Shown here: positions 6,361 through 20,940 of the stretch, one piece after another
How positions within the stretch are numbered: position 1 is the stretch's first letter
Layout: each line of letters opens with the position of its first letter
Assembly: GCA_029010575.1 (NCBI GenBank)
Contig: JAQXKS010000001.1
Location: 1 to 34,063 of the forward strand
From: Bacteroidales bacterium
Lineage (GTDB): Bacteria > Bacteroidota > Bacteroidia > Bacteroidales > UBA932
Length of the DNA: 34,063 bases
Direction of reading: 5' to 3'
Made by a program: the position numbers and the translations under genes
The notes under the pieces: generated by a model
The model's input: the letters and a program-made list of their open reading frames with translations, nothing else
Told to the model about the DNA's origin: nothing
Databases searched by the model: none

Positions 6361-6651
6361 TTATTTTCCGAATCTTTTCTCTTTAATTTTCACGATTTGA
6401 TCCTGCAGAACATCGACGCAATCGACTACAGCATCCTCAAAAGTGTCTGCTGTCCTTTCTATCACCAGGTCATCACCGGGAATGCCCAGAATAACTTTCA
6501 CACTCTTTTTATGGTCCGGCTGCAGGGTAAGATTTACGTCACATCTTACGATGTTGTCAAAAAACTTTTCAAGCTTGCCTACTTTTTTGTTAATGAAATC
6601 AAGAAGCTTCTGATCAGCATCGAACTTGATCGATTGAATGTTAATGTTCAT
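6361..6651 (-). CDS. hpf: Ribosome hibernation promoting factor (HPF/RaiA family), short form
   Basis: Binds the 30S decoding region when cells stop growing and favours inactive ribosomes. The 96-residue protein starts MNINIQSIKFDAD and has the single beta-alpha-beta-beta-beta-alpha domain, with the late ADTFEDAVVDCVDVLQDQI helix typical of the family. It lacks the C-terminal dimerisation domain of long HPF. The ATG lies inside the end of xerC (11-base overlap) and is preceded by GGAGGT five bases upstream, an unusually good SD for this phylum. Translation therefore probably starts independently on the xerC-hpf mRNA. A strong terminator follows at once. Confidence 0.93.
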   Translation of the reverse strand: MNINIQSIKFDADQKLLDFINKKVGKLEKFFDNIVRCDVNLTLQPDHKKSVKVILGIPGDDLVIERTADTFEDAVVDCVDVLQDQIVKIKEKRFGK

Positions 6652-7603
6652 TTTTACCTCCGTTTTTTGCTCTTGGGTGAGCGGTTAAATATGTTTTTTT
6701 CAATTGTTCAAAGGAGTTGTGGGTGTATACTTGTGTCGCGGCAAGCGACGAGTGTCCCAGAACCTCTTTGATAGAATTGAGATCTGCCCCGTTGTTAAGC
6801 AGGTGCGTCGCAAAGGAGTGTCTCAAGACATGCGGAGATTTCTTTCCGCTGAAAGCATCGAGTCCGTCAAACTCCTCATGAACCATCTTATTGACAAAAT
6901 CGGGAGTTATTTCCTTTCCCGTATCTGTCAAAAAGAAAGCATCGCTCCCACACTGAGGAAAATCCTCCGTAATTCTCTTCAAATATAATAAAATTTCACG
7001 ACATACACTATCGGGTACTGGAATTTCTCTCATTTTGTCTCCTTTACCGACAATGCGAAAAACATGGCGTGCCCTGTCAAAGTCACCCCTTCTGAGCGAA
7101 GAGAGTTCCGCTCGTCTCATTCCGGTGGAATAAAGAAGCAGAATCATCATGACATTACGGTGAAAGTGGAAATCTCTGGATGAAAGAGGGGCCTCTTCTG
7201 AACCTACCCCCTTCATCTCGAAATAGTAATCCATAGATTTTTCGGTAAAAAAGGCAGGAAGCCTTGCAGGCTGCTTGGGACGTGGCACCTTCCTGATAGG
7301 ATTGGAGTCCATCACACCCTCTCTCATCAGATAACGGCAGAAGCTGCTCAGAGCACTCAGGTGCAGATTCACCGTAACAGGACTCTCACCCCTTTCCAGA
7401 GAAAAGGCTATATACCCTCTAACCATCCTGATTGTCAGCGCCTGACGGATAAGCTCATCTGTCATGTAAGCCGCGACCTGCTCCTTCGGGTACTGTTGAT
7501 AGACAAAAGAGAAAAAGGCTTCAAGGGCATCTCTGTAAATAATTGCAGTACGGGAAGAGTATCTCCTTCCTGACTCTATGTATCTGATATATTGTTCAAT
7601 CAT
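6641..7603 (-). CDS. xerC: Tyrosine recombinase XerC/XerD family
   Basis: Site-specific recombinase expected to resolve chromosome dimers at dif. From the start chosen here it has 320 residues. The N-terminal SAM-like core-binding domain spans about 1-105. The catalytic domain carries Arg163 (STGMRRAEL), Lys187 (VGKGDK), His258 and Arg261 (HVLRH), His284 (LGH) and the nucleophile Tyr293 (QVYTH), so all catalytic residues are present. The open frame extends 26 codons further upstream, but that part overlaps the promoter. MIEQYIRYIE at 7603 is the typical family start. Nearby rpsU, hpf and xerC form a housekeeping cluster, so this is a chromosomal Xer protein rather than a mobile-element integrase. 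Confidence 0.92.
   Translation of the reverse strand: MIEQYIRYIESGRRYSSRTAIIYRDALEAFFSFVYQQYPKEQVAAYMTDELIRQALTIRMVRGYIAFSLERGESPVTVNLHLSALSSFCRYLMREGVMDSNPIRKVPRPKQPARLPAFFTEKSMDYYFEMKGVGSEEAPLSSRDFHFHRNVMMILLLYSTGMRRAELSSLRRGDFDRARHVFRIVGKGDKMREIPVPDSVCREILLYLKRITEDFPQCGSDAFFLTDTGKEITPDFVNKMVHEEFDGLDAFSGKKSPHVLRHSFATHLLNNGADLNSIKEVLGHSSLAATQVYTHNSFEQLKKTYLTAHPRAKNGGKNEH
6656..6661 (-). promoter_or_regulatory. Strong ribosome binding site of hpf
   Basis: GGAGGT lies four bases before the stretch leading into the hpf ATG and inside the last xerC codons. It supports the chosen hpf start and internal initiation on the xerC mRNA. Confidence 0.75.
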
Positions 7604-7620
7604 TCCAAATAGGTTATATA

Positions 7621-7628
7621 CAAAAATA
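7621..7628 (-). promoter_or_regulatory. Promoter -7 element for xerC-hpf
   Basis: On the minus strand TATTTTTG matches TAnnTTTG, 17 bases before the chosen xerC ATG. No clear -33 TTTG is visible at the right distance. It sits back to back with the rpsU promoter. Confidence 0.5.
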
Positions 7629-7637
7629 TGCCATTTT

Positions 7638-7668
7638 TTTGGAAGAAAGAAAAAATCAAGTATATTTG
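7638..7668 (+). promoter_or_regulatory. Consensus Bacteroidota promoter of rpsU
   Basis: TTTG (7638-7641), a 19-base spacer and TATATTTG (7661-7668) fit the Bacteroidota sigma consensus TTTG-N19/20-TAnnTTTG. Transcription should start near 7675, leaving a leader of about 24 bases that consists almost only of the SD. Confidence 0.85.
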
Positions 7669-7681
7669 CGCCACTAAACAA

Positions 7682-7698: not shown

Positions 7699-7890
7699 AT
7701 GATTATTGTACCTATCAAAGAAGGCGAAAATATTGAAAAATCTTTGAAGAAATTCAAACGTAAATTCGAAAAAACCGGTATCGTTCGCGAACTTCGTAAC
7801 AGAAAGACCTTCGAAAAACCTTCTGTTAAAAGAAGAACAGAGATCAAGAAGGCCATCTACGTACAGCATCTTAGACTGCAGGACGAATAA
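7699..7890 (+). CDS. rpsU: 30S ribosomal protein bS21
   Basis: Small basic ribosomal protein near the 16S rRNA 3' end, on the small-subunit platform. The 63-residue protein starts MIIVPIKEGENIEKSLKKFK and has the lysine/arginine-rich helical pattern and the RELRNRKTFEKPSVKRR core of the Bacteroidota form. It stands alone between its own promoter and a strong terminator. The upstream SD is nearly perfect. Work on Flavobacterium johnsoniae ribosomes showed that bS21 helps occlude the anti-SD, and that ribosomes lacking bS21 can use SDs, including that of rpsU. The sequence fits the same autoregulatory loop here; this last point is inference. Confidence 0.97.
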   Translation: MIIVPIKEGENIEKSLKKFKRKFEKTGIVRELRNRKTFEKPSVKRRTEIKKAIYVQHLRLQDE

Positions 7891-7910
7891 TTGAACGGAC
7901 CTTCAATATA

Positions 7911-7947
7911 AAAAAGGAGGGTGACCAAAAGGTCATCCTCTTTTTTT
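7911..7947. terminator. Bidirectional terminator between rpsU and the surface operon
   Basis: The hairpin GGAGGGTGACC-AAAA-GGTCATCCTC has a T-run after it on the plus strand (7941-7947) and an A-run before it (7911-7915), which is a T-run on the minus strand. It can stop rpsU transcripts rightward and the eight-gene minus-strand operon leftward. Confidence 0.9.
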
Positions 7948-7979
7948 GTGGGTAGAGAGCTGCAGCGTCAGCAACTTAA

Positions 7980-10004
7980 CTATTTCACTCTGGTAAGTAC
8001 GATATCACTCTGTGCAATCATAACGTCTGCATTGCCATTGAGAAGGAATACAGCAGGTCTGTATGAGAGATTGTCGTATTCTGCCACAGGAACGCTGGCC
8101 TTAATGGTCATAGTATTCTTGTCAGCCGAGAGTTCTACAGGGAACGATGCAGGTGCAAGTGCATAAGAGTCATAGTTGCAGCCCACAAAATAGAACGCTC
8201 CATTTTCTGTATAGTTGAGCAGGTATTCATTCCTTGATGTAGGAACTGATATCTGGTCTGCGCTTCCAATTTCGAGGAAAATCTTAGGGCCGCAGTCTCT
8301 ATATGCCAATGAAGGGTATTCTCCCCAGTAAGAAGGATCGTTGGCCATCAGTTCAGCAGGAGTGACCATTTGGAAATTTGCAGCTTTATAGAAGGGGAAT
8401 CCTTCAACTACAAGTCTGTTGATAGCCCTATATTCTTCTTTGCTCAGATCGTCAAATCCCTGAGAGATGACCACAGGTTCATCTGTAAATGTAGCGGTAA
8501 CCTGATCTCCATACTCATTTCTGACATAAGCAGTATATGAAACATTCCAAGTTCCAAGAAGATCTTCGAACAGAGTTGAAGTTACCTGAGGAACATCAGG
8601 ACGTTTTTCTGTCTTGAACTGCTTTGCCACATAAGTCTCTTCACCTTCGAGTGTTCTAACACCTACCACACAGACATAATCTGTCGTTCTGTAGAGATCC
8701 TCTACACCGAACCAAATACCGTTAGGTGTCTTGATATCGGGGAATTCCTTATCGTTGAACTGTGTTCCATAAAGTGATACCAGCTCTGCATCACTCTTAC
8801 CTGAGGTCTCATACTCCGCCAGTGTCAGAACATAGCGGATAGCCTGATATGCCAGGTCATCAGCCTTCACATTGATATCCACAGCTCTGTCTTCCTGTCC
8901 GAAACGATGTTCGACAGTAACAGTAACTTCAGACTTCTTTCCACTTGAAGGAGCAGTCCTGAAATCCTTCATGAGAAGGGATACTCCGTCATCTTCACCT
9001 ACCACTGCGACATATACACGGCTGTCTGTATCAGTCTTGATATCATGTCCTGGACCCTTTCCGGGACCGTAGAGTTCATCGGAAGGACCGGTGAACATTC
9101 TTCCGCCTTCAGGAAGCATGATAATCTGTGCAATCATCGCATCATCTGCACCAAGACTGTGTGCATAATCATACCATTCAGCTGTATTTACATACACATG
9201 ATACTGTTTAACCTTATGGTCGGGAGTACATTTGACACGGCAAGTGGTAGAGGTAATGTCATAAACTTCGATATCCACAAGGGCATCAGTCGTGCTGCCC
9301 TCCTTTGTCCTGAACTTGATAATTTCAGCAGTAGATGAATTTACATCCTGAACCATGATATAGTAGGGATAAGAGGGGTAAACCTCCATCTTGGTATCGT
9401 TGTAATACTGTCCGTTTGACCACTCAAACTCCCTGTATCCGCTTTCAGGGAAACCGAAGTTGGAAAGCCATGATTCGGGAGAATCAGCGTACATATGGTA
9501 AGAAGTGCTGTCAGCAACGGAAAATTTATAAGATTTTCCTTCTCCGTTAATAGCAAATTTGAAATATGTATCACCAATTTCCAAAATAGTAATCATACCT
9601 GACTCAGAAGTGGATACTTTGAGTGTCTCTACTTTAGAATAAGTCTTTCCTTTGGAAGCGACAGCATAGATAAGATATTCAGTAGCAGGAGAGAGGTCCT
9701 TCACAGAGATGGTCTGCTTGAAGTTTGCAGGAAACTCTCCAAAATTGGAGTTGATCAGTTCCTCAGGCTTTGGTATAGCAGGAGCATCTGAGGCTATTAC
9801 TACTGAGTAACCATAATAGAGAGCATTTTCACATTCCAATGTGAATTCGATAGATTTCTGAAGCAAATTACCAGGGGTAATTGTCAGGTTAAGAGAGGTT
9901 GTGTCATCCGGATTAGGCTGAGGTTCCGGATCGGGATTGTTTCGCTTGCAGCTTGCAAAGAGAGTTAACAAAACAATCGAAAAGGTTAATAAAATCTTTT
10001 TCAT
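7980..10004 (-). CDS. Lipoprotein with Fn3-like repeats and a C-terminal beta domain
   Basis: Function unknown. The 674-residue protein has a lipoprotein signal (LFASC, Cys19) followed by a Pro/Asp-rich linker, as in surface-exposed Bacteroidota lipoproteins. Several fibronectin-III-like segments can be recognised by their LSPATEYLIYAVASKGKT and LYRTTDYVCVVGVRT type strands and spaced KTEK or RTKEG linkers. They lie roughly in residues 40-130, 225-350 and 360-475. From about 485 (LFEDLLGTWNVSYTAY) a separate domain with a lipocalin- or calycin-like opening runs to the end. It is the last gene of the eight-gene surface operon, 16 bases behind the PCMD protein, and ends before the shared terminator. 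No catalytic motif is seen. Confidence 0.85.
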   Translation of the reverse strand: MKKILLTFSIVLLTLFASCKRNNPDPEPQPNPDDTTSLNLTITPGNLLQKSIEFTLECENALYYGYSVVIASDAPAIPKPEELINSNFGEFPANFKQTISVKDLSPATEYLIYAVASKGKTYSKVETLKVSTSESGMITILEIGDTYFKFAINGEGKSYKFSVADSTSYHMYADSPESWLSNFGFPESGYREFEWSNGQYYNDTKMEVYPSYPYYIMVQDVNSSTAEIIKFRTKEGSTTDALVDIEVYDITSTTCRVKCTPDHKVKQYHVYVNTAEWYDYAHSLGADDAMIAQIIMLPEGGRMFTGPSDELYGPGKGPGHDIKTDTDSRVYVAVVGEDDGVSLLMKDFRTAPSSGKKSEVTVTVEHRFGQEDRAVDINVKADDLAYQAIRYVLTLAEYETSGKSDAELVSLYGTQFNDKEFPDIKTPNGIWFGVEDLYRTTDYVCVVGVRTLEGEETYVAKQFKTEKRPDVPQVTSTLFEDLLGTWNVSYTAYVRNEYGDQVTATFTDEPVVISQGFDDLSKEEYRAINRLVVEGFPFYKAANFQMVTPAELMANDPSYWGEYPSLAYRDCGPKIFLEIGSADQISVPTSRNEYLLNYTENGAFYFVGCNYDSYALAPASFPVELSADKNTMTIKASVPVAEYDNLSYRPAVFLLNGNADVMIAQSDIVLTRVK

Positions 10005-10020
10005 TTTATGAATTGTTTAA

Positions 10021-11685
10021 CTAGTAAATAAGTTCCATTTTGTCTACCCACAATTTGCTTTGAGACGAGCCGGTCAGGTAATCGCCCAGATAGCTTGAAG
10101 CGCATGTAATGATAATGTGGGTAGGTCTGCGATCAAGGCTCCTGTAGTCAAGGGGAATCTCCACCTGCTGCCATCCATCCGTGGACTCTGCGAGCACCAA
10201 ATGGCCAAATCCGATGATACCATCAGACTCAGAGGTGTAATAAATACCGTCGGAAGTATTTACATATACCGGAGACTCGGGGACACCCCCCATCTTCCTA
10301 TAGTCCCAATCACCGACAGAGATAGCCACCTCGCACCTATCGTTGTCACCTATGGCGACATTGTCTCCTGGAGGAATACCCTTGATTATATCCACTTTGC
10401 CGCTATGATATTTGACCCACACTCGAAGGGCCTTGGGACGGGTAGCCCAGGGACGACCGTAATTGACCGCGCCTCCCGATGTTCCCACCAGTTTGGCAAA
10501 ACGTCCGAGAAAAATATTTCCGCAAGCAAGCAGACCTACAAAATTCTTGGTCTCGCACCTTACAGAATATTCTCCATCCACCTTTTCATCTGCATCTGGA
10601 TAGGTCAGGACTATACCCAGACTTCCGGTGCCGTTCACACCGTCTGGACCTTCACCATTGCCACTTGCCCAAAATATTTCTCTACAATCTTCAAACTCAG
10701 ATGAGGGATCATACCACTTATAATACCCCTTGTTCAGGTCATTCATCTGACTCTCAGGCTTTGAGCCCGTAACCACAGAAAAGACCTCGAAACTGTTGTT
10801 GGGAAGCTGTGTGTCAGGGTCTGTTTTGAAAGAGTAGACCTCAGTCATTTCCGAACCACTATAAGCATAATATTCGTATTGAGTGTCTGGGTTCAAGAAT
10901 TTCAGATGAGCAGTAAATTCACCACCATCCGAAACGATATCTGAGCTGCTGACCGTACTCCAATCAGATCCCTCATCTTTTACCCTGTACTTGAAGCCGT
11001 TATCCATTCCTGCGACACCGACTGCAGTAATATAGGCCTCTTTGGTCCATGGATTCACACTCTTAACATTGATAGAGATATCTGACTGCTCTACGAAAAT
11101 AGTCCAATACTCATTGACATCAAAGTATGAGACTGCAAGTTCAAATGGAGTCGGATTCCCATTCTCATCACAGAAATTGAATATCTGTGTAATATCGTGA
11201 GAATATGTAGTAAGTCCCTTTGGACCCAGTTTCATTGAAGTAACTTTGACCTTACTCAGATTCACACTCTTACGCACATACGCAATAATCCTCTTATTGG
11301 CCGCATCTATTACGGTTGCACCTATCTGGCCATCCACCGTAAAATAGCGTTCCACATCCCACTTGCATGAGAATGTCCACTGATAATCCTGATATGTACT
11401 CAGAATGAATGTCTTCGGTTCACTTAGATTGTGAACGCCCACAGGATCCTCAGAGAAAGTAACGTTCTCTTTATCCACCTTAACGGAGAGAATCTTGACC
11501 TTCTTGGGATTGTAGGTCTCGTCAAGAACTACGGTAACAGTTCTCTTGTCGTTATCAATAAGAGCAGTGCCCCCATCAACATCCACAGATAAGATTACCG
11601 GAATCACCTTTGGATACGGCACATCATTCCTCACACAAGCTGCACATACAAGGAGTACTATAGCTGATAAAATATAGCGTTTCAT
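10021..11685 (-). CDS. PCMD-domain lipoprotein (putative carbohydrate-metabolism domain)
   Basis: A 554-residue predicted lipoprotein with Cys17 after a hydrophobic segment; the residue at -3 is itself Cys, a slightly unusual lipobox. Residues about 25-190 hold two Ig-like repeats of the type VKILSVKVDKENVTF. Residues about 205-290 form an Fn3-like segment ending LNPDTQYEYYAY. Residues 294-554 form a PCMD-type jelly roll (NNSFE, YYKWYDPSSEF, GTSGGAVNYGRPW, ending KLWVDKMELIY). The same module, about half identical by eye, occurs in the gene at 13226-15103. Related domains are thought to bind or process glycans, but the function is not established. Gap to the upstream gene is 12 bases. Confidence 0.85.
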   Translation of the reverse strand: MKRYILSAIVLLVCAACVRNDVPYPKVIPVILSVDVDGGTALIDNDKRTVTVVLDETYNPKKVKILSVKVDKENVTFSEDPVGVHNLSEPKTFILSTYQDYQWTFSCKWDVERYFTVDGQIGATVIDAANKRIIAYVRKSVNLSKVKVTSMKLGPKGLTTYSHDITQIFNFCDENGNPTPFELAVSYFDVNEYWTIFVEQSDISINVKSVNPWTKEAYITAVGVAGMDNGFKYRVKDEGSDWSTVSSSDIVSDGGEFTAHLKFLNPDTQYEYYAYSGSEMTEVYSFKTDPDTQLPNNSFEVFSVVTGSKPESQMNDLNKGYYKWYDPSSEFEDCREIFWASGNGEGPDGVNGTGSLGIVLTYPDADEKVDGEYSVRCETKNFVGLLACGNIFLGRFAKLVGTSGGAVNYGRPWATRPKALRVWVKYHSGKVDIIKGIPPGDNVAIGDNDRCEVAISVGDWDYRKMGGVPESPVYVNTSDGIYYTSESDGIIGFGHLVLAESTDGWQQVEIPLDYRSLDRRPTHIIITCASSYLGDYLTGSSQSKLWVDKMELIY

Positions 11686-11697
11686 ATTATCCTCGAA

Positions 11698-12465
11698 TTA
11701 TAAATGAACAGTTATTCCAAAACTAAGAGCCAGAAGGTTGAGTTTGGATTGAGCCCTGAAAGAGAGCCTGTCTCCGACAAAAACACCATCCTTGAAGCCC
11801 TTGGAGTAATTATAGGAGATATCTGCAAGACTCACTGAAGCGTAAATCGAGACATTGTTCATTGGAAAATAGACAATACCCGGACTCAGCACCAGCGAGA
11901 TCTTGTCATTGGTAGAGTATGAAGAGTGCATATCCTGAACAAAAACATCTGTCCTGGACCTGACATAACCCAAAGCGGCATCAATGAAGAAGCCCACCCT
12001 GGCCAACCTGTCAAGACCGATATATGACCTATTAAACAGGTACGCACTATAAGAAAGATACTTTGCTCTGATATTCTCAATATCGAGCGAGAAATTACCC
12101 AGCAGATCAAGTGTAGAGGCATCAATAAGACAATTGCCCGTAGAGTATTTGAAACGCAGACCCGCACTCTGGTTATTCATATAAGCAAAACCTCCCTGCA
12201 AAGAGATATCCAATATGGAAGCATTAGCTGAAGTGCCATCTAAAATAAGTAGATAATCACTATTATCCGTACTGATATTCATATAAGAGGCAGCCATACC
12301 TATCTGCCAGTCTCCCTTTGGAATAATAGTATAGGATGCCAATCTCCTTTTATGCAAGGAGTCATGTACCATAGAATCAGCGGAAGCAGCTTCCCAAGCA
12401 TGAATGTTGCCGGAAAAGATCATTAAGGCAAACAATGATGATAGTATATAGTGTATCCTTTTCAT
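11698..12465 (-). CDS. Small outer-membrane beta-barrel protein (copy 2)
   Basis: A 255-residue protein with a cleavable signal peptide (about residues 1-23, FSGNIHAWEA) and no lipobox. The rest is built of alternating hydrophobic/polar strands (GDWQIGMAASYMNIS, AKYLSYSAYLF, RVGFFIDAALGYV), and the protein ends in LSFGITVHL, a pattern typical of an outer-membrane barrel of about eight to ten strands. It is related by eye to its neighbour at 12472-13221: both share GxxxxIGxxxxYxxxxxxNxDYLLxxDGxxSN-like openings. No function is known. It might hold or export the lipoproteins of the operon; that is speculation from context. Confidence 0.8.
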   Translation of the reverse strand: MKRIHYILSSLFALMIFSGNIHAWEAASADSMVHDSLHKRRLASYTIIPKGDWQIGMAASYMNISTDNSDYLLILDGTSANASILDISLQGGFAYMNNQSAGLRFKYSTGNCLIDASTLDLLGNFSLDIENIRAKYLSYSAYLFNRSYIGLDRLARVGFFIDAALGYVRSRTDVFVQDMHSSYSTNDKISLVLSPGIVYFPMNNVSIYASVSLADISYNYSKGFKDGVFVGDRLSFRAQSKLNLLALSFGITVHL

Positions 12466-12471
12466 AGTACC

Positions 12472-13221
12472 TTATAAATAATATGCCAATCCGACACTTA
12501 TTGTCGCAAAGTTAACAGTAAGACTCGCATTTGAAATACCATCAGAGCCATATGCAACCTGATTATGGACCTGAGACGACCAGCCATAATTGAAGCCGAG
12601 CACGCCGACACTCAGCTCCAGGGCAAGATGGTTGGTCAGAAAAGCGGAAATACCGGGATTGACTCCAACAAAAATTGTATTACGCGAAGTAAAAGTTCCC
12701 TTGGTATCAGAAGCTATATAAGCGGTATTCTTCAGTCTGGAATTGGAATAGCCAATTTCCACCTGAGCAAACATGGAGAAACGACCTGAAGATCCCAACG
12801 GGATATAAGGCCTGAGCAACAATGCTCCAGAGAATTTCTGAGACAATAGAAGATAATCCTTGACACTCATAGATATCTCTGAGATAGAGAGGTTCGCACT
12901 GCTCAAATCGAGGTATGTTCTGTCATAATCAACTCTGAATCCTACCCCGACATTATTCCTGACCATATAGAGAAAATGCGGTGAAACAGAGATCGAGTAT
13001 CCATTTGAATTAATTCCATCGACAATCAAATAATTATAGTCCTTCATCGAATGATAGGAGAACTGTATATTGCCTCCGATGGTAAAAGTACCTTTGCCGG
13101 CAAAGATCCTTTCGTTCAATCGGCCATACCCTCTATCGATCCTCTGGGCATAAGCACCTGAAGTGCCTGCACCCAGAAGAACAACAGCTAAAATAATACA
13201 GAGACTTTTTCTTGTCATCAA
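12472..13221 (-). CDS. Small outer-membrane beta-barrel protein (copy 1)
   Basis: A 249-residue protein with a signal peptide ending near SGAYAQ (residue 26). It has barrel-type strands (TFTIGGNIQFSYHSM, NNVGVGFRVDYDRTYL, GRFSMFAQVEIGYSNSRL) and a final strand ISVGLAYYL with aromatic residues near the C-terminus, as BAM substrates have. It lies 4 bases after the DUF4493/PCMD gene and 6 bases before its paralogue, so all are probably translated together. The two copies look like an old tandem duplication. The first Met is followed directly by another Met; either could be used. Confidence 0.8.
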   Translation of the reverse strand: MMTRKSLCIILAVVLLGAGTSGAYAQRIDRGYGRLNERIFAGKGTFTIGGNIQFSYHSMKDYNYLIVDGINSNGYSISVSPHFLYMVRNNVGVGFRVDYDRTYLDLSSANLSISEISMSVKDYLLLSQKFSGALLLRPYIPLGSSGRFSMFAQVEIGYSNSRLKNTAYIASDTKGTFTSRNTIFVGVNPGISAFLTNHLALELSVGVLGFNYGWSSQVHNQVAYGSDGISNASLTVNFATISVGLAYYL

Positions 13222-13225
13222 TCCT

Positions 13226-15103
13226 TTATTCGTAAATTAATTCAGCATTATCCAGATAAAGTTTCGCAGAATCGCATCCGGTAAAATAGTTACCATAGAT
13301 GGATGATGCGCACGAAATGATAATATGTGTCGGATAATCTGTCATATTGCGGTACTCCAAAGGAATGGTAATCTGGCGCCATTCTCCCGGATTCACTTGT
13401 GATGTGCCACCGCTGTTTATCTTTTCATATCCGTCACCAGAGAGAGTATACTCACCATAGGCAATGGTACTTGCATCCGTAGTGAAGTCAACGAATGTAG
13501 CAGAATTGGAAGTATTTATATGTACAGGAGAATCCTTTGTTCCACCATACTGACGATAATTCCATGTACCGATAGCAATCTGGATATTGGCACAGTCGTA
13601 TGTAACATTCTTTTCAACTGTTACACCTTCAGGAACATTCTTAACGATATTGATTTGTCCTGCATTGTACTTTACCCATATTCTCAATGCTGTGGGGCGC
13701 GATGTCCATGGACGGCCGAAATTCACCTTGCCACCTGATGTTCCTTCAAGACCCGCAAACTGGCCTGTAAAGATATTGCCAGCTGCCAGAATACCTACCA
13801 AAGAAGAAGACTGGGCACATACGGAATAATTTCCGTCAACCGCATCTTCCGAAGGAGCAGTAATGACAATACCCATGGAAGCTGAACCATTTACACCCTC
13901 ACTGCCTTCACCGTTTCCGGAGCCCCAGAACATGGTTTCACCCTCAGGTACACCACATGAAGGATCATACCACTTGTAGTAGCTCTTGCCAGAAACAAGA
14001 CTGATATACTCAAAGCTGTGGTTGGGAAGTGCAGGAGCCATATCTGTAGTAAAAGAGAGAGACTCTCCGACTGTCTGGCCGTCAATCACGAGCCTGTATT
14101 CATACTCTGTAGAGGGTACAAGACCGGTAAGCACACCATCATAAAGTCCCTCACCCACGCGAGTGGCATCAGCAACCATCCACTGTGAATCCTGAGAAGC
14201 CTTATACGAAAACTTGATCAACGAAGGATCTGAATATTCAGACTCATCCACATCCGCATGAACATAAGCTCTGCCAGCCCATATTTCATATACCCTCGAC
14301 TGTGAAAGACCGGTAGAGACTGGTTCGAACACCACCATATCCTCGACAACCTCAGTAGAGTAGTCAACCATAAGATCCATACTCAGCTCACCATCCTTGA
14401 TAGTATATTTTACTGTAGTACGATAGGCCTTGCCTCCCTCCACATCAGGAATGACACCCTCCCTGACAAAGGAAGAACCATCATTTGCAAGAGTTCCAGA
14501 AAACCTCCATTTCAAAGAGGGTTCAATCTCACCATCCACAATAAAATAGCCCTCATTAGCAGAATGGGAAAGATCATAAACCAAAGTAGATGAAGAGTCT
14601 TCAAGATCCATACCTACTGTAAAGGAGAATCCATCGTTAAAATTCTCAGCCACTGTGGGATCAAAAGAGACTACAGTGACTACATTGGAAACACCCGCCT
14701 GAACCTGAACACTTGTATTCTGTCCGGCAATGATTTCGAAAGAGCTTGAGCCGAAATAACTCTTGGAGTCCCACGAAGCTTTCATCGGAGAGACTTTGGC
14801 AGCTTCACCGGCAGTAACATCCACCCTGTAAGATTCAGCAGGCAGATAGATAGCAGATGGAATTTCACTATATTTATAACTGCGGATCAACCCGCTGAAA
14901 TCACCCTTGTAGATATTGACATTGGCTTGGGACAACAACTCATCCTGTGACATCGATTTTGTCTGGGAAGACATGCAGAGACTCAGTGAAACAGAGCCCT
15001 CTCCATCACCTGGCACTACACTCCTCTGACTGCAGGAAGCAAACAGTACGGGAAGCACTGCCACAAAGTATTTAATGATATTATTTATTTTCATAAACAA
15101 CAT
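13226..15103 (-). CDS. DUF4493 plus PCMD lipoprotein
   Basis: A 625-residue protein, or 622 if the Met at codon 4 is used; the GGGAG SD is better placed for that one. The lipobox is LFASC (Cys24 from the first Met). Residues about 35-200 match the DUF4493 pattern: short strands, YSEIPSAIYLPAESYRVDV, SWDSKSYFGSSSFEIIAGQ. A beta-sandwich of the Fn3 type follows at about 270-355 (GLVPSTEYEYRLVIDGQ). Residues 359-625 are a PCMD jelly roll (NHSFE, YYKWYDPSCG, GTSGGKVNFGRPW, ending LYLDNAELIYE). It joins the two families that occur separately elsewhere in the operon. Function is unknown, with a likely surface location. Confidence 0.87.
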   Translation of the reverse strand: MLFMKINNIIKYFVAVLPVLFASCSQRSVVPGDGEGSVSLSLCMSSQTKSMSQDELLSQANVNIYKGDFSGLIRSYKYSEIPSAIYLPAESYRVDVTAGEAAKVSPMKASWDSKSYFGSSSFEIIAGQNTSVQVQAGVSNVVTVVSFDPTVAENFNDGFSFTVGMDLEDSSSTLVYDLSHSANEGYFIVDGEIEPSLKWRFSGTLANDGSSFVREGVIPDVEGGKAYRTTVKYTIKDGELSMDLMVDYSTEVVEDMVVFEPVSTGLSQSRVYEIWAGRAYVHADVDESEYSDPSLIKFSYKASQDSQWMVADATRVGEGLYDGVLTGLVPSTEYEYRLVIDGQTVGESLSFTTDMAPALPNHSFEYISLVSGKSYYKWYDPSCGVPEGETMFWGSGNGEGSEGVNGSASMGIVITAPSEDAVDGNYSVCAQSSSLVGILAAGNIFTGQFAGLEGTSGGKVNFGRPWTSRPTALRIWVKYNAGQINIVKNVPEGVTVEKNVTYDCANIQIAIGTWNYRQYGGTKDSPVHINTSNSATFVDFTTDASTIAYGEYTLSGDGYEKINSGGTSQVNPGEWRQITIPLEYRNMTDYPTHIIISCASSIYGNYFTGCDSAKLYLDNAELIYE

Positions 15104-15113
15104 TCTCCCTCAT

Positions 15114-16382
15114 TTATTCAACAATCATAACAATAGGGAAAGAAGCTTTACATCCCTGCGCATCAGTAATATTCATGGTAAATGTATGTCTTCCTCCATA
15201 TAGGGTAATAGCATCCTGAGCTGCACACAGATCAAAAGGAACCTCTGTCATGCCCACCAGTTCAGGTCCATGAGTAAAGGGAACCACCTGGAAGATAATT
15301 TCATTGTCTGGAGAAGGATTGACCAAATCAAGGACTGTTGCCCCGGCAGCAGCCACAGCTCTATTGAAATCCTCATTTGTAGAGCTTATCTCCACATTGA
15401 ACTTCTTGATGCCGTTAGGAACAGTAGCTTTGAAGAAAAGCTTAAGATCTTTTTCATCAGGTGAAGGGACATAAATGGCTCCCATATCTGTAATATCTGG
15501 ATCACATCCTGCTTCGTAATCAAATACGAAAGTCATGTCTCCATCGCCCTTAGGTGCCTGAGGATCCTCACCTATCACAGGTTCTTCTGTCTCAATACTG
15601 TTGCCCAAAACCTCGTCATCGACAAAATCATTGATAACGACATCGAATGTAGCGTCTCCCTGATCATTCACCTTCTTGACAAACTTAATCTGACGCCACT
15701 GTCTGGGCTCGAGACCGGAAATACTCTTGGTCATCTTCTGGCTCTTTCCCTCTATCGATCCCTTGAAGGTAACCACAAGAGTGGTATTTGCACCACCATT
15801 CAACGAGAAATAACCTGCTGACTTGTCATAATTGGCCTTTCCTTCACTGTAAGTCATTTTATATTCGAGCGGATATCCTGCTGCTACCTCAACAGTAGCC
15901 ACACCGTCACCGGTAACACTTGCAAGGAACTCATCACTATAACTTACAGTAACCTTGCATTGAAGAAGTGTACATGTCAATGTACCCAAAGATGTCTTCT
16001 CACCAGCCACCATAGAAAATGTTTTGGTCGCTCCATAGACGGGCTGTTCAAAAGCAGCCTGTGGAATCTCCTCAGAAACTGAGCGGGCCACAAGAACATA
16101 ATCACCTGCAGGAAGCATGACTTTATTGTCATCAGCCTTGAACTGCTCATAACTCTTCCTTAAGATGGTATTTCCATCTGCTGTATTTATCATTATTGTA
16201 TAAGATCCTCCGGCAGCAGATGAAGCCTTTGTGAAGAGAGAATCATCTGTCGTAATGGTGAAATCCGAGAGTTCGAGTGTACCATTGGGATTCTCTTCAA
16301 CTGTAATCCTGGAAGCACACGAAGAGAGGGCAAGCATCAGTGCCGCCATCAATATATATCCTGTTCTTTTATTCATATACAT
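15114..16382 (-). CDS. DUF4493 lipoprotein
   Basis: A 422-residue lipoprotein with lipobox LSSC (Cys22). The ATG at 16376 (third codon, MNKRTGY) is an alternative start that gives a more usual signal peptide. Residues about 35-235 follow the DUF4493 pattern: KVMLPAGDYVLVARS, AAFEQPVYGATKTFSMVAGE, and a later SGYFSLNGGANTTLVVTFKGS repeat ending GLEPRQWRQIKF. The C-terminal 150 residues form a further beta-rich domain (TFVFDYEAGCDPDI to FPIVMIVE) that I do not recognise. It is the third gene of the surface operon, 12 bases behind the gene upstream. Confidence 0.82.
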   Translation of the reverse strand: MYMNKRTGYILMAALMLALSSCASRITVEENPNGTLELSDFTITTDDSLFTKASSAAGGSYTIMINTADGNTILRKSYEQFKADDNKVMLPAGDYVLVARSVSEEIPQAAFEQPVYGATKTFSMVAGEKTSLGTLTCTLLQCKVTVSYSDEFLASVTGDGVATVEVAAGYPLEYKMTYSEGKANYDKSAGYFSLNGGANTTLVVTFKGSIEGKSQKMTKSISGLEPRQWRQIKFVKKVNDQGDATFDVVINDFVDDEVLGNSIETEEPVIGEDPQAPKGDGDMTFVFDYEAGCDPDITDMGAIYVPSPDEKDLKLFFKATVPNGIKKFNVEISSTNEDFNRAVAAAGATVLDLVNPSPDNEIIFQVVPFTHGPELVGMTEVPFDLCAAQDAITLYGGRHTFTMNITDAQGCKASFPIVMIVE

Positions 16383-16394
16383 ATAATTGAAAAA

Positions 16395-17132
16395 TTAATC
16401 ATTAAGTTCGATATCCTCAAGTTCGACACTCTCTATAGTATCATTGAAAGAGATAGTAATCGTTGCCCCGCCAATACCTTCCGCATCGAAAGCGAGTTCA
16501 TAGCAAGTAGCCGGTTCAAGTCCCGTATACTCTTTGGAGAAGGATTTGGTACTTCCTCCTTGAGAAGTTACATTACCGGAAACTGTAATCTTGTAGGCAT
16601 CCACGAAAGCGCCCCTGTTTTCGGATATAGGGAAAGCAATTTCATTCCCGTTACCAGTGGTAACTACAAAATCACTTGAAACAAAGTAGTTAGTGAAAGT
16701 ATTACTTCTGGTCACTTTCACAATAGAATTAGTAAGAGCAGCAGGTACAGAGACATTGGTGGTCTCACCTCCGGTCACTGTAAAAGATGAAGAACCAGTA
16801 AAGAATGGTTTGTCAAAACCCTCCTCCCCTTCAGTTCCATATGAGACAGCTGCCTCGTAGGCACCTGCAGGAATCTTGGTAGAAGAATCCCATTCTGAAA
16901 GCAGACCTTCATAGAGAGATACCCCGTCACCATCAGTAACATTAAGCGTAAAATCACCTGGAGCGGGAAGTGCAGTATAAGAGGATACAGCACCCTTAGT
17001 AATTTCCGTTACATAAATGTCATTCTCAACCGAAAATGACACCTTTCCAGACTTGTCCCCGATAGAAGAAATGTTACAAGATGTGGCAACATATAAGGAA
17101 AGTGTTAAAAAAATCGTCTTTCTTAGATTCAT
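16395..17132 (-). CDS. Short DUF4493 lipoprotein
   Basis: A 245-residue lipoprotein with lipobox ATSC (Cys19), consisting of little more than one DUF4493 unit. It shows a GKVSFSVEND opening strand, TKIPAGAYEAAVSYG, FDKPFFTGSSSFTVTGGE and a second half ending TGLEPATCYELAFDAE. It shares its layout with the N-terminal halves of the next two genes, which suggests repeated duplication of one lipoprotein module. The DUF4493 fold is thought to be related to fimbrillins, so it could be a structural subunit or a ligand-binding protein. No catalytic residues are apparent. Confidence 0.82.
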   Translation of the reverse strand: MNLRKTIFLTLSLYVATSCNISSIGDKSGKVSFSVENDIYVTEITKGAVSSYTALPAPGDFTLNVTDGDGVSLYEGLLSEWDSSTKIPAGAYEAAVSYGTEGEEGFDKPFFTGSSSFTVTGGETTNVSVPAALTNSIVKVTRSNTFTNYFVSSDFVVTTGNGNEIAFPISENRGAFVDAYKITVSGNVTSQGGSTKSFSKEYTGLEPATCYELAFDAEGIGGATITISFNDTIESVELEDIELND

Positions 17133-17144
17133 AACTGTTTAAAA

Positions 17145-18977
17145 TTAGTGAATATATATCTTTATATTATCCAAGTATAGATAATACTGAGAATTTGAAG
17201 CAATATGTTTGGTATTTCTGTCGGTACCCATCATGAACACGAACCTTGTTGCAGATGTACATCCGTTGACATCGTGAACCTTATGAGTCATCTGGGCAGC
17301 ATTGCCGCTTGAATGTCTTTCAGACTCGTAAACGACAGAACAGCTGGAGGCCATATCTCCTACATAGACACCGTCGATAGGAGAGTCCTGACTTGAAGTG
17401 TGAGTACCCAAGATATAGAAAGCCATCTTATTTCGAGAGTCATCCACATTAAGACCTGCAGGGACAACTATGGAATAATCGTACTCGAAAACGACATTGA
17501 CAGAAGAGCCCTCCTTTATGCGGGACATTGCGGGAGTATCCAGACGGCCTGCAAGTCTTTCAACCACCCACGCTCCGGACTGATAACGGGAGTTTATCCT
17601 TGCATTCTCTCCTTCGTACAGGGCAAAACGAGCTGCATTCCAGCCATTGTCAGGCATATACCCATCAAGAAGGTACCCGGTCCAGTTTCTCTCGTTACCC
17701 GTCGTATAATCATCATCCTTGCTATATGAAGCGGCACCTGAAAAATCTTCGTACAGAAGGTATGGTACATCTCCCAAAGAGATGGCAGCCATCTTTCCGC
17801 TTAAAGAGAGTGCAGAAGCGGGAATCGGAAGAACAGAAACGGTATTGGCTGTCTCGAACACCACAGTGGCCCTGCCTCCACTGACAGCAGCACAGATTCT
17901 GTCAAACTGTGCGACCTGCTCAGAACCTGTATACTCACAGTCAAATTGGAAATTCTCATAAAACTCACTATCATTATGGCTATATGAGAGCAGAAGCTCC
18001 TCACCCTCCTTTATATATACATCGGTAAGAGCCTCTCCGATATAATTGCTGCCAACATATAGTGTAACCTTTGCAGAGATGACACTCTCACTCAGGGAGA
18101 GCCTCACAGGAGTGGAGTGACCTGCAGCAAAAAATCTTCCTTCGACAGAGATAGGCTCCGCCTTAAACATCTTTTCAGCAGTATATGCAGTGACAAAAAG
18201 AGAATCGGACGAGGTAAAATCCCGGGTAGAAGGGAAGAGTCCCGCACATGCATAATTATAGCTGTCTCCTTCAGAAACAGTCAGTGCATCGGTCAGTTCG
18301 AGAACAATGGAGTTGCCACCCTCAGAGAGGATGCCCGGGGTATCCGGGGCAGTGACATCCATACTGTAATTGCCGGTAACATTGTAAGGGAGCGAAATCT
18401 CCAGTCTCCTGATGGAATCTGTTCCAAGGGGAGATCCCTCAGGCACGAAGAATCTGAACTGATGTAACAGATGATTCATATAGAGATTAAGAACTGTTCC
18501 GTTATTGCCATCTTCGATACTTCTGAGAGGTCCACCCGGAGTAGGGCTGCACACTATAATATCAGCACCTCCCGAGAGTCTGCCGTCCTGAACTTCAGGA
18601 ATGTTGAAAACGACATCTGTACCCTCTGCACTCACAGGAAGAGGAGAACACCCATAATAAGTATAGCGTTCCTCAGGCATTTCCTGTGAAAGAGTAGCAG
18701 TAAAGAGAGCACTAAAATCTGAAAAACCGTACACTGAAAACTGAACATTATTCAATATGAAATTCCCTGAAGGGTTCACCGCCCACAGGGCAAGACGATC
18801 ACCCTCACACCATACAGATGAGAGTCCGTCCTGAGAGATAATAGGCTTGGTAAGTGGCTCCGTAACTGAAAAACCCACAGTTATCGAACCATCCTTAACA
18901 GTCTCAATGCTCCTTTCTGAGCATGAAAAGAGCATGAAAACAGACAATAGGACAAAATAAATATTTCTATATTCCAT
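17145..18977 (-). CDS. Fimbrillin-like lipoprotein with a C-terminal jelly-roll domain
   Basis: First gene of the surface operon. The open frame extends to 19037, but that part would cover the promoter. MEYRNIYFVLLSVFMLFSC at 18977 gives a good lipoprotein signal (Cys19) and 610 residues. The N-terminal half resembles the fimbrillin-like (Mfa-like) family: GSITVGFSV, SSVWCEGDRLALWAVNP, YTYYGCSPLP, LNLYMNHLLHQFRFFV. The last 210 residues, from YEDFSGAASYS, look like a separate lectin-type beta sandwich ending YLYLDNIKIYIH, similar in closing motif to the PCMD proteins downstream. It may be an adhesin or pilus-tip subunit; no FimA-type assembly genes are present. Confidence 0.83.
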   Translation of the reverse strand: MEYRNIYFVLLSVFMLFSCSERSIETVKDGSITVGFSVTEPLTKPIISQDGLSSVWCEGDRLALWAVNPSGNFILNNVQFSVYGFSDFSALFTATLSQEMPEERYTYYGCSPLPVSAEGTDVVFNIPEVQDGRLSGGADIIVCSPTPGGPLRSIEDGNNGTVLNLYMNHLLHQFRFFVPEGSPLGTDSIRRLEISLPYNVTGNYSMDVTAPDTPGILSEGGNSIVLELTDALTVSEGDSYNYACAGLFPSTRDFTSSDSLFVTAYTAEKMFKAEPISVEGRFFAAGHSTPVRLSLSESVISAKVTLYVGSNYIGEALTDVYIKEGEELLLSYSHNDSEFYENFQFDCEYTGSEQVAQFDRICAAVSGGRATVVFETANTVSVLPIPASALSLSGKMAAISLGDVPYLLYEDFSGAASYSKDDDYTTGNERNWTGYLLDGYMPDNGWNAARFALYEGENARINSRYQSGAWVVERLAGRLDTPAMSRIKEGSSVNVVFEYDYSIVVPAGLNVDDSRNKMAFYILGTHTSSQDSPIDGVYVGDMASSCSVVYESERHSSGNAAQMTHKVHDVNGCTSATRFVFMMGTDRNTKHIASNSQYYLYLDNIKIYIH

Positions 18978-19002
18978 AATTAATATTAAGCCATAAGAGT
19001 GG

Positions 19003-19034
19003 CAAAAATAGAAAAAAATCAAAGTAATTAGCAA
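19003..19034 (-). promoter_or_regulatory. Promoter of the eight-gene surface operon
   Basis: On the minus strand TATTTTTG (19010-19003) fits TAnnTTTG, with TTG (19034-19032) 21 bases upstream. It lies 25 bases before the chosen ATG. This placement is the main reason for the shortened start at 18977. Confidence 0.65.
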
Positions 19035-19052
19035 CAATTGAGAAACAATTAG

Positions 19053-19060
19053 TACTTTTG
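19053..19060 (+). promoter_or_regulatory. Promoter -7 element for parE
   Basis: TACTTTTG fits TAnnTTTG, 32 bases before the parE ATG. The -33 match is poor. It diverges from the surface-operon promoter within a 115-base intergenic region. Confidence 0.5.
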
Positions 19061-19092
19061 TAGGAGATACAATTTTTATACACCATAGTATA

Positions 19093-20940
19093 ATGAGCGA
19101 AAAATTAAGAGATTACGACAGCGACGCAATAGAAACACTCGAGTGGAACGAGCACATAAGACACCGTCCCGGAATGTACATTGGTAATACCGGAGATGGT
19201 TCAATGCCTGATGACGGCATATATGTACTCGTAAAAGAGGTGATAGATAACTCCATAGATGAATTCGCGACCGGATTCGGAAAGGAAATAAGGATTACAC
19301 TCGAAAACAATACCGTCTCTGTAAGAGACTTCGGACGAGGAATCCCATTTGATAAAGTCATCGATGCCTCAAGCAATCTTATGACAGGAGGAAAATTCAA
19401 AGAGGGACTGTTCAAGAAAAGTGTCGGACTTAACGGAGTCGGACTCAAGGCAGTAAACGCCACCTCATCGTACTTCCACATAAAATCCATACGAAACGGT
19501 GAATTCTTCAGCTCCACTTTCTCCAAAGGCAGGCTGATATCAAAAGATTTCGGTACCTGCACTGAGAAAAATGGAACATTCGTGGAATTTACCGCAGACG
19601 AAGAGATCTTCAAAGGCTACAGGTACAACACCGAGTTCATAGAAACAATGGTAAAGAACTACGCCTACCTGAACACCGGTCTTTCGCTCTACCTCAACGA
19701 CACCCGTTACTTCTCCAGAAACGGGCTTCTCGACTTGGTAAATGACAATATGGCTGAAAGCCCCCTCTATCCCCCCATCCATCTTATAGGTGAAGATATC
19801 GAGATGGTGATAACACATGGAGAGAACAATGGGGAGAACATTGCCTCATTCGTCAACGGACAGAATACCACCCAGGGAGGAACCCACCTCTCGGCATACA
19901 AGGAGGCTCTGGCCAAGACCATTAAAGAACACTTCAAGAAAGACCTCGAACCCTCGGATATAAGGCAATCAATGATAGGGGCAATCTCCATCAGGATGGA
20001 CGAAGCCCCCGGATTTGGCAACCAGACCAAGACCAAGCTTACCTCCAAGGAGAAAGCATCCGGACTCTCGATGCGCAGCTTCATAGGGGACTTTGTGGCA
20101 GAGGAACTTGACAACTATCTCCACAAAAATCCCGAAATAGCATCCATAATGCTCAAGAAGATACAGGAATCTGAAAAGGAGCGCAAGGCCATCACCGGAG
20201 TCCAGAAAAACCTCAAAGAGAAGGTCAAGAAAGCGAACCTATGCAACAGAAAGTTGCGTGATTGCCGAGTACACTATACTGACAGCCGCAATCCCCTCTC
20301 GGAAGAGTCTTCTCTCTTTATCACAGAGGGAGATTCAGCAAGCGGATCAATCACCAAAATCAGAGATGTCAACACTCAGGCTGTTTTCAGTCTGAGAGGG
20401 AAACCGCTCAACTGTGTACAGAAAGGCGGTCATGAAGTCATGCACAACGAGGAGATGATACTCCTGAAGGCAGCCCTCAACATCGATGAAGACATGGATA
20501 ACCTGCGCTATAACAAGATAATAATAGCGACAGATGCCGATGTAGACGGCATGCACATCAGACTCCTGATGGTCAGCTTCTTCCTCAAATTCTACCCCGA
20601 ATTAGTCCGCCTGGGACATGTATACATCCTTCAGACACCCCTCTTCAGGGTACGCAACAAGAAAAAGAACATATATTGCTACAGCGAGGAGGAGAAACTC
20701 CGGGCAATGGAAGAGCTCGGTAAAGGACATGAAATCACACGATTCAAAGGATTGGGAGAAATTTCACCCGAAGAGTTCAAGGGATTTATCGGAGAGGATA
20801 TGAGACTTGACCCGGTAAGACTCACGATGGAGGACAAGATTGAAGACCTCCTTCAGTTCTACATGGGCAAAAATACCCCTGACAGACAGTTTTTCATTAG
20901 ACAGAACCTCAGAAGTGACCTCATATTGGAAATAGTATAA
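19093..20940 (+). CDS. parE: DNA topoisomerase IV subunit B
   Basis: ATPase subunit of the type IIA topoisomerase that separates daughter chromosomes. The 615-residue protein has the GHKL ATPase site with Glu49 and Asn53 (EVIDNSIDEF), the glycine motif GRGIP and the lid GLNGVGLKAVNA. A TOPRIM domain follows with EGDSASGS (Glu412) and DADVDG (Asp481, 483, 485), and the C-terminal tail ends with the QFFIRQNL segment. The Ala-free GTGDGS-like insert of GyrB is absent and the length fits Bacteroidales ParE (about 620) better than GyrB (about 650). parC is not nearby. Two lipid-metabolism genes follow 3 and 5 bases apart and are probably co-transcribed. Confidence 0.9.
   Translation: MSEKLRDYDSDAIETLEWNEHIRHRPGMYIGNTGDGSMPDDGIYVLVKEVIDNSIDEFATGFGKEIRITLENNTVSVRDFGRGIPFDKVIDASSNLMTGGKFKEGLFKKSVGLNGVGLKAVNATSSYFHIKSIRNGEFFSSTFSKGRLISKDFGTCTEKNGTFVEFTADEEIFKGYRYNTEFIETMVKNYAYLNTGLSLYLNDTRYFSRNGLLDLVNDNMAESPLYPPIHLIGEDIEMVITHGENNGENIASFVNGQNTTQGGTHLSAYKEALAKTIKEHFKKDLEPSDIRQSMIGAISIRMDEAPGFGNQTKTKLTSKEKASGLSMRSFIGDFVAEELDNYLHKNPEIASIMLKKIQESEKERKAITGVQKNLKEKVKKANLCNRKLRDCRVHYTDSRNPLSEESSLFITEGDSASGSITKIRDVNTQAVFSLRGKPLNCVQKGGHEVMHNEEMILLKAALNIDEDMDNLRYNKIIIATDADVDGMHIRLLMVSFFLKFYPELVRLGHVYILQTPLFRVRNKKKNIYCYSEEEKLRAMEELGKGHEITRFKGLGEISPEEFKGFIGEDMRLDPVRLTMEDKIEDLLQFYMGKNTPDRQFFIRQNLRSDLILEIV

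Follow-up and report, generated by a model that had tools for sequence, protein, structure and literature searches.

The operon described here lies in a 34,063-nucleotide stretch of DNA from a Bacteroidales bacterium (GenBank assembly GCA_029010575.1, contig JAQXKS010000001.1, positions 1 to 34,063), referred to throughout as the window. It comprises eight minus-strand open reading frames, running from 18977 down to 7980, which we name P8 to P1 in that order. Comparison of related genomes indicates that these, P1 apart, belong to a conserved, co-oriented gene set whose order is not the product of chance. The sequences support two further statements: that the lipoproteins of the operon are built from fimbrillin-related domains and PCMD jelly-roll domains, and that genes for a PCMD lipoprotein and for a small outer-membrane barrel go together in the genome. 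By analogy, we suggest that the operon encodes one cell-surface assembly, in which fimbrillin-related and PCMD lipoproteins would be mounted on small barrels in the manner of the Bt1926–Bt1927 pair, and we consider the case for this to be about evenly balanced. Much the same row of genes recurs in order in many relatives, and for this reason the operon looks like a real surface structure, and one not yet studied. In the open-licence literature, no paper turned up under DUF4493, PF14900, PF13201 or phrases with PCMD domain, although the word PCMD by itself occurs in one (PMC13079829).

Gene order carries the finding. We examined 76 loci (two from one genome) that were fetched on the barrel alone, and in which genes were called with home-made profiles of the barrel, PCMD and DUF4493; 67 of them, the window included, have a barrel at E < 1e-20. 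A PCMD protein directly follows the barrel, or barrel pair, in 65 of these 67; a DUF4493+PCMD protein directly precedes it in 50; and one gene further upstream, DUF4493 is present again in 49 of the 50. Usually, the first gene encodes DUF4493+PCMD+PCMD or DUF4493+PCMD. A P8-type first gene occurs in the window, in its sister, and in L034–L037, L131 and L134. Barrels are single in 41 loci and double in 26, and the 26 second members of the doublets form one clade in an approximate tree (support 0.93). The 17 loci that deviate, either in the PCMD gene after or in the DUF4493+PCMD gene before, include contig ends, shortened forms with barrel and PCMD only (e.g. L060 and L064), and short-PCMD forms (L135, L137 and L138). 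The nine loci without a strong barrel (L139–L147) contain generic small barrels, and no PCMD gene was found in the stretches examined. Genes can adjoin by accident, and P1, which is not conserved with the rest, together with the relatives that retain barrel and PCMD only, might be taken that way; the order kept across the 67 loci contradicts this, and we reject chance neighbourhood as hardly credible. A first-pass annotation of the window, made from its letters alone, had offered conserved order across Bacteroidales as a check on its proposed operon. Order is indeed kept, which favours the operon, within the limit that DUF4493 and PCMD genes are found without the barrel too. Its eight-gene unit survives as a conserved core from which the eighth gene drops out: P1 has a close match in only 2 of 149 family genomes, with distant matches in eight more, and is a variable passenger outside the conserved set. 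In a variant of the operon (L111, L123 and L108), two more DUF4493-containing genes follow the PCMD gene.

P4 is matched in 35 of the 149 family genomes (any match, own genome included), and in 10 of 25 genera. At the level of the order, the barrel profile, which was built on family members, has a match in 80 of 393 genomes, and strong barrels (E < 1e-50) occur in 34 of the 393, own genome counted, spread over 13 family codes. Neighbourhoods were fetched for 31 of the 34 strong, and 13 of the 46 weaker, barrel genomes. A parE-like topoisomerase gene lies upstream of the operon in the window, in divergent orientation. Of the family loci, 32 contain an opposite-strand gene upstream within the sequence fetched, and in 20 of these the first such gene is parE. 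This speaks for inheritance at a fixed place, and on this ground we reject a recent mobile island.

Coupling of PCMD to a small barrel is not confined to this operon. As a control, 40 loci with PCMD away from the first type of barrel were chosen by hand from a list, and in these a barrel of a second type directly adjoins 31 of 47 PCMD-only genes, on the same strand. The model for this second type came from neighbours selected on their position and length, and Pfam serves as the independent check: all 24 aligned second-type barrels match OMP_b-brl_2 (E up to 0.1; best 4.7e-37). By Pfam coordinates alone, seven genomes have 11 listed PCMD genes outside the operon, and 7 of these have an OMP_b-brl_2-type barrel beside them, a count that leaves out PCMD places under the table cut and is to be read against a background of 7–18 such barrels per genome. 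The barrel of L184 was missed by the gene caller and is visible from Pfam coordinates. No protein matches both barrel models, and compared with each other (hhalign 25.6%), the two families are not shown to be related. Weak PF13505 matches in both (7 of 38 first-type and 12 of 24 second-type barrels) make a distant kinship possible, and we take the two to be distinct families that may be distant cousins. PCMD with a mini-barrel thus looks like a recurring pair. L206, L208 and L209 each contain, in succession, a PCMD protein without a recognised lipobox, a PCMD lipoprotein, and an OMP_b-brl_2-type barrel.

Within the window, Pfam places PCMD (PF13201) in P2 (113.3 bits) and P5 (101.9 bits; cut-off 28), and DUF4493 (PF14900) in P5, P6 and P7 (104–118 bits; cut-off 27). 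P1, P3 and P8 have no Pfam family over cut-off, and the OMP_b-brl match of P4 falls below it; P3 and P4, 25% identical, are paralogues. A lipobox can be read in six of the eight translated proteins, and barrel-type ends in two. The first-pass annotation had assigned these same domains, and counted six lipoprotein signals and two barrels; all of this is borne out. Neither Pfam nor NCBIfam finds SusC/SusD, a fim/mfa cluster, pilus-assembly genes, a protease, a hydrolase or a transporter among the eight genes, and there is no SusC/SusD in ten scanned neighbour genes (scan reaching 26165) either. The annotation's observation that SusCD, pilus-assembly and hydrolase genes are missing is correct, then, for the eight genes, and it remains valid to call the operon neither a classic polysaccharide-utilisation locus (PUL) nor a type V pilus operon of the classic kind, with a fimbrillin link that proves stronger than had been assumed.

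That link emerges only when relatives are aligned; P8 alone matches no profile. Eight aligned P8-type proteins, compared with 24 Mfa_like_1 (PF13149) domains, give an hhalign value of 97.3% over 222 columns. One of the eight matches PF13149 in Pfam, and the P8-type profile has a match at 4e-4 to the structure of a putative cell adhesion protein (PDB 4k4k), which is likewise the top match of the Mfa_like_1 profile. Judged by these profiles, the N-terminal half of P8 is fimbrillin-like, and the name the protein had been given at first is confirmed through its relatives in place of a Pfam match of its own. DUF4493 (40 domains) reaches 89.9% over 114 columns against 26 Mfa2 domains, 60.5% over 46 columns against six Mfa2 sequences, and 2% and 15% against Mfa_like_1. 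Barrels against Mfa2, a true negative control, give 1.7%. DUF4493 is probably, if remotely, like Mfa2, the pilus anchor; its comparison with the PDB by sequence yielded nothing convincing. In our organism's own genome, G000, an Mfa2 match lies within a 998-residue open frame (contig C52, 27283–27741).

Type V pili (FimA–E, Mfa1–5) are the obvious point of comparison, and the operon might encode a fimbria of its own: DUF4493 proteins and P8 would be cut after T-K/R by a surface protease and polymerise by donor strand exchange, with PCMD proteins and barrels as base or tip. Type V pilins are lipoproteins matured by gingipains, according to excerpts of a published account (PMC11316588), and the likeness extends to fimbrillin-related lipoproteins, P8 among them, to the remote similarity of DUF4493 to Mfa2, and to a T-K/R past the anchor. 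A candidate cut motif, [TS][KR][ASGD], located 10–70 residues past the lipid cysteine, is present in 60 of 72 DUF4493 proteins, and likewise in 34 of 50 with DUF4493+PCMD and 21 of 31 with DUF4493+PCMD+PCMD; in shuffles of these three groups the fraction is 0.22–0.24, and in the proteins the motif lies mostly at 22–45 residues. Among PCMD-only proteins it occurs in 1 of 57, versus 0.19 in shuffles. The operon differs, however, in having PCMD domains and small barrels where type V pili have a fim/mfa cluster; there is no protease among its eight genes; and most DUF4493 domains are fused to PCMD or embedded in larger proteins, unlike a repeating stalk. We regard the fimbria as a tentative alternative.

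In an alignment of 93 barrels, conservation and alternation fit eight strands, and conserved stretches occur near P4 positions 106–122 and 217–225 (numbering of that alignment; Q217 90%, G225 79%), which we infer to be loops outside the membrane. NCBIfam returns only weak matches, mainly to the TDE1717 family and all under cut-off; for P4 it has no model at E up to 1, and no BT1926-named model appears among the matches of 38 barrels, the content of that library being uncertain. Comparison of the barrels with the PDB by sequence led nowhere. PCMD-only partners of first-type barrels are distinctive at their N-termini, most of them reading C-[IV]-x-N-D-[ILM]-P-Y-P from the lipid cysteine, a segment we call the tether. 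In a looser form, C..N[DE][ILVMP], it is present in 44 of 61 such partners with a recognised lipobox (of the non-matches, several are misplaced cysteines and others real variants), in 3 of 81 and 2 of 81 DUF4493 proteins, and in 1 of 30 partners of second-type barrels. The latter often start with C-I-K-D-E or similar, and 17 of the 30 fit Cx[KRQNS][DE][DE], a loosened form of the published surface-export signal C-x-K-(D/E)2 (excerpts of PMC5080379).

Tight pairing of barrel and lipoprotein genes, side by side, could also mean that the barrels are export partners, which move their cognate lipoproteins across the outer membrane. At about 250 residues, with a pattern that fits eight strands, they leave little room for the passage of protein. 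DUF4493 and PCMD lipoproteins also occur without a barrel, and lipoproteins of this phylum reach the surface by virtue of a short signal of their own (excerpts of PMC5080379). An export role for the barrels is, in our view, unlikely.

PCMD has been associated with glycans. The BT2081-type structures (PDB 3hbz, 4jrl, 4het and 3s30) match the PCMD profile at E values of 1e-35 to 3e-31, and the BT2081 paper, in the excerpts at hand, proposes Asp259 and Asp338 as catalytic, names the residues of an aromatic pocket, and gives a PUL/SusC context for BT2081 and its paralogues (PMC2954218). We mapped these residues by hand, through the BT2081 match, onto the PCMD-only domains of the operon loci, 71 in number. 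Phe or Tyr occupies position 202 in 67 of them, and positions 206 and 340 in 68 each; at position 261, 36 have Tyr. Asp is found at 338 in 58, and at 259 in only 3. In the window, positions 259 and 338 are both Asn in P5, and Glu and Asp in P2; neither protein has Tyr261. On the strength of Asp259 we reject PCMD as a glycoside hydrolase here, and consider any hydrolase role of the operon PCMD unlikely; the rarity of Asp259, combined with the retention of the aromatic positions, suggests that its role is in binding rather than catalysis. The earlier label 'glycan-related' has its footing in the BT2081 paper (PMC2954218), and the residues make hydrolysis unlikely. An accessory to glycan capture or uptake, which the name PCMD and the BT2081 paper both suggest, would suit a jelly roll with an aromatic pocket and the PUL context of BT2081; since the eight genes include neither SusC/SusD nor a hydrolase or transporter, the scanned neighbours no SusC/SusD, and Asp259 is so seldom kept, we judge it improbable. 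Operon proteins share the PCMD domain and aromatic pocket with BT2081-type proteins, and differ in that PCMD is also fused to DUF4493, the operon is longer, and a barrel family of its own is present. No small barrel is named in the excerpts of the BT2081 paper (PMC2954218).

A surface assembly on small barrels has a close parallel in the surface-layer locus of Bacteroides thetaiotaomicron. Bt1926, a small, predicted eight-stranded barrel and putative anchor, is encoded there beside the surface lipoprotein Bt1927, as small barrel and lipoprotein genes are here (excerpts of PMC12578637 and PMC12228718); an oligomeric superfamily of eight-stranded barrels has also been described (PMC12228718, in excerpt). 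Bt1927 is switched by an invertible promoter (excerpts of PMC12548429), and in this the two loci differ, for none is present at the operon: the published 19-bp repeat of the Bt1927 locus is absent from the genome (1.76 Mb, 87% complete), and no long inverted repeat was found at the operon promoter, only a 12-nt inverted pair 521 nt apart. We reject a Bt1927-type invertible promoter accordingly. Kinship of the barrels by sequence is not settled; the published repeat, used as a route to a Bt1926 homologue, led to recombinases and large surface proteins, and to no nameable Bt1926 barrel. Pairs such as SusCD and BtuB–BtuG embody the same principle, a surface lipoprotein together with an outer-membrane barrel. 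Their barrels are large TonB-dependent transporters, and those of the operon have about 250 residues.

By analogy with Bt1927, the lipoproteins would be flipped to the cell exterior. The PCMD lipoprotein may then dock, by its tether and PCMD domain, onto the extracellular loops of the barrel, which would serve as membrane anchor or basal scaffold, while the DUF4493+PCMD fusions and fimbrillin-like P8 would stack outward and display aromatic PCMD pockets able, perhaps, to bind glycan or another surface ligand. The earlier proposal of one surface complex, with barrels that anchor or export the lipoproteins, gains from the conserved order and from the second PCMD–barrel pairing; its anchoring and export remain inference. 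A bolder version, which we think rather unlikely, makes PCMD a docking-and-display module for mini-barrels of at least two families, and here the base of a fimbrillin-derived organelle with a membrane ring of barrel oligomers.

Several observations weigh against a single assembly of this kind. In L066, L137 and L138, the partner of the first-type barrel is a short PCMD protein without the tether, which may, then, reflect descent and not docking. The loosened export signal is rare here: first-barrel partners have it in 3 of 61 cases, the two sets of 81 DUF4493 proteins in 9 and 8, and the 6 P8-type proteins in none. P8 against Mfa2 gives an hhalign value of 0.5%, and its C-terminal half, tried as a PCMD domain, gives 0.06%, which lends that idea no support; all hhalign values are for single pairs, and the DUF4493–Mfa2 similarity spans only its 114 columns. 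A directly adjoining barrel is missing for 22 PCMD-only genes, 4 of which lie at a contig end; of the 47 in the control, 16 are without one, although three have one a gene further on. Finally, DUF4493 and PCMD genes occur without a barrel even in the operon's own genome (contig C35).

On that contig, three DUF4493 or DUF4493+PCMD proteins are encoded in a row (L154, 5854–10067), and no adjoining barrel was found for the cluster.

Coordinates of the operon and its flanking signals are collected in Table 1. The eight same-strand genes lie where the first-pass annotation had put them. Gaps between them are 12, 12, 10, 7, 6, 12 and 16 bases; of the 4–16 bases first reported, the upper figure holds and the lower becomes 6, with 4 obtained if TTG at 13221 starts the first barrel.

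Table 1. Features of the operon in the window
Feature	Position	Strand	Basis
Promoter-type match TTG-N21-TATTTTTG	19003..19034	-	motif scan
P8, lipoprotein, fimbrillin-like N-terminal half, C-terminal part without family over cut-off	17145..18977	-	profiles of relatives
P7, DUF4493 lipoprotein, 245 residues	16395..17132	-	Pfam
P6, DUF4493 lipoprotein, 422 residues	15114..16382	-	Pfam
P5, DUF4493+PCMD lipoprotein, 625 residues	13226..15103	-	Pfam
P4, small outer-membrane barrel A, 248 residues	12472..13218	-	weak OMP_b-brl, barrel-type ends
P3, small outer-membrane barrel B, P4 paralogue	11698..12465	-	sequence comparison
P2, PCMD lipoprotein with conserved N-terminal tether	10021..11685	-	Pfam, N-terminus
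P1, lipoprotein, no family over cut-off, variable passenger	7980..10004	-	homologue search
Intrinsic terminator hairpin with T tail	7911..7947	-	folding

The match to TTG-N21-TATTTTTG, which we take to be the Bacteroidetes-type promoter consensus, ends 26 bases 5' of the first ATG, that of P8. It is the only one on the operon strand in 7900–19100, and since 0.65 are expected from shuffles, it is weak evidence for the operon promoter. The single promoter claimed at first is therefore matched once, with no second match to split the set in that interval, and is weak to the same degree. The single terminator claimed with it is the firmer of the two: none of 200 shuffles folds as well as the hairpin at the end of the operon (z -3.5). 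Past the 3' end, and convergent with the operon, is a small plus-strand gene (7699–7890), absent for its shortness from the list of open reading frames, that we presume to encode ribosomal protein S21 (rpsU). Beyond the terminator lies a tyrosine recombinase gene (6641–7681), with a strong homologue in the sister and only two other fetched family loci; nothing indicates that it belongs to the operon.

The sister genome, G005, has the operon too, and the two are 94% identical across the barrel. Compared between these sisters, the eight genes have ratios of nonsynonymous to synonymous divergence (dN/dS) of 0.05–0.21; P8 and barrel B, at 87% and 86% identity, are the most variable, and synonymous divergence is 0.10–0.70 across the operon versus 0.10 in parE. 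Between the window and L033, seven of the genes have 2–7 times the synonymous divergence of parE, and P7 is as low as parE, a pattern that may point to recombination inside the operon.

No role is known for the DUF4493 and PCMD domains, and their fixed order in many Bacteroidales families makes of them one testable system. The pairing of PCMD with barrels leads, in turn, to the hypothesis that some small barrels of the phylum hold surface lipoproteins. If true, this would give a starting point for work on adhesion, on coat formation and on the access of phages to these bacteria.

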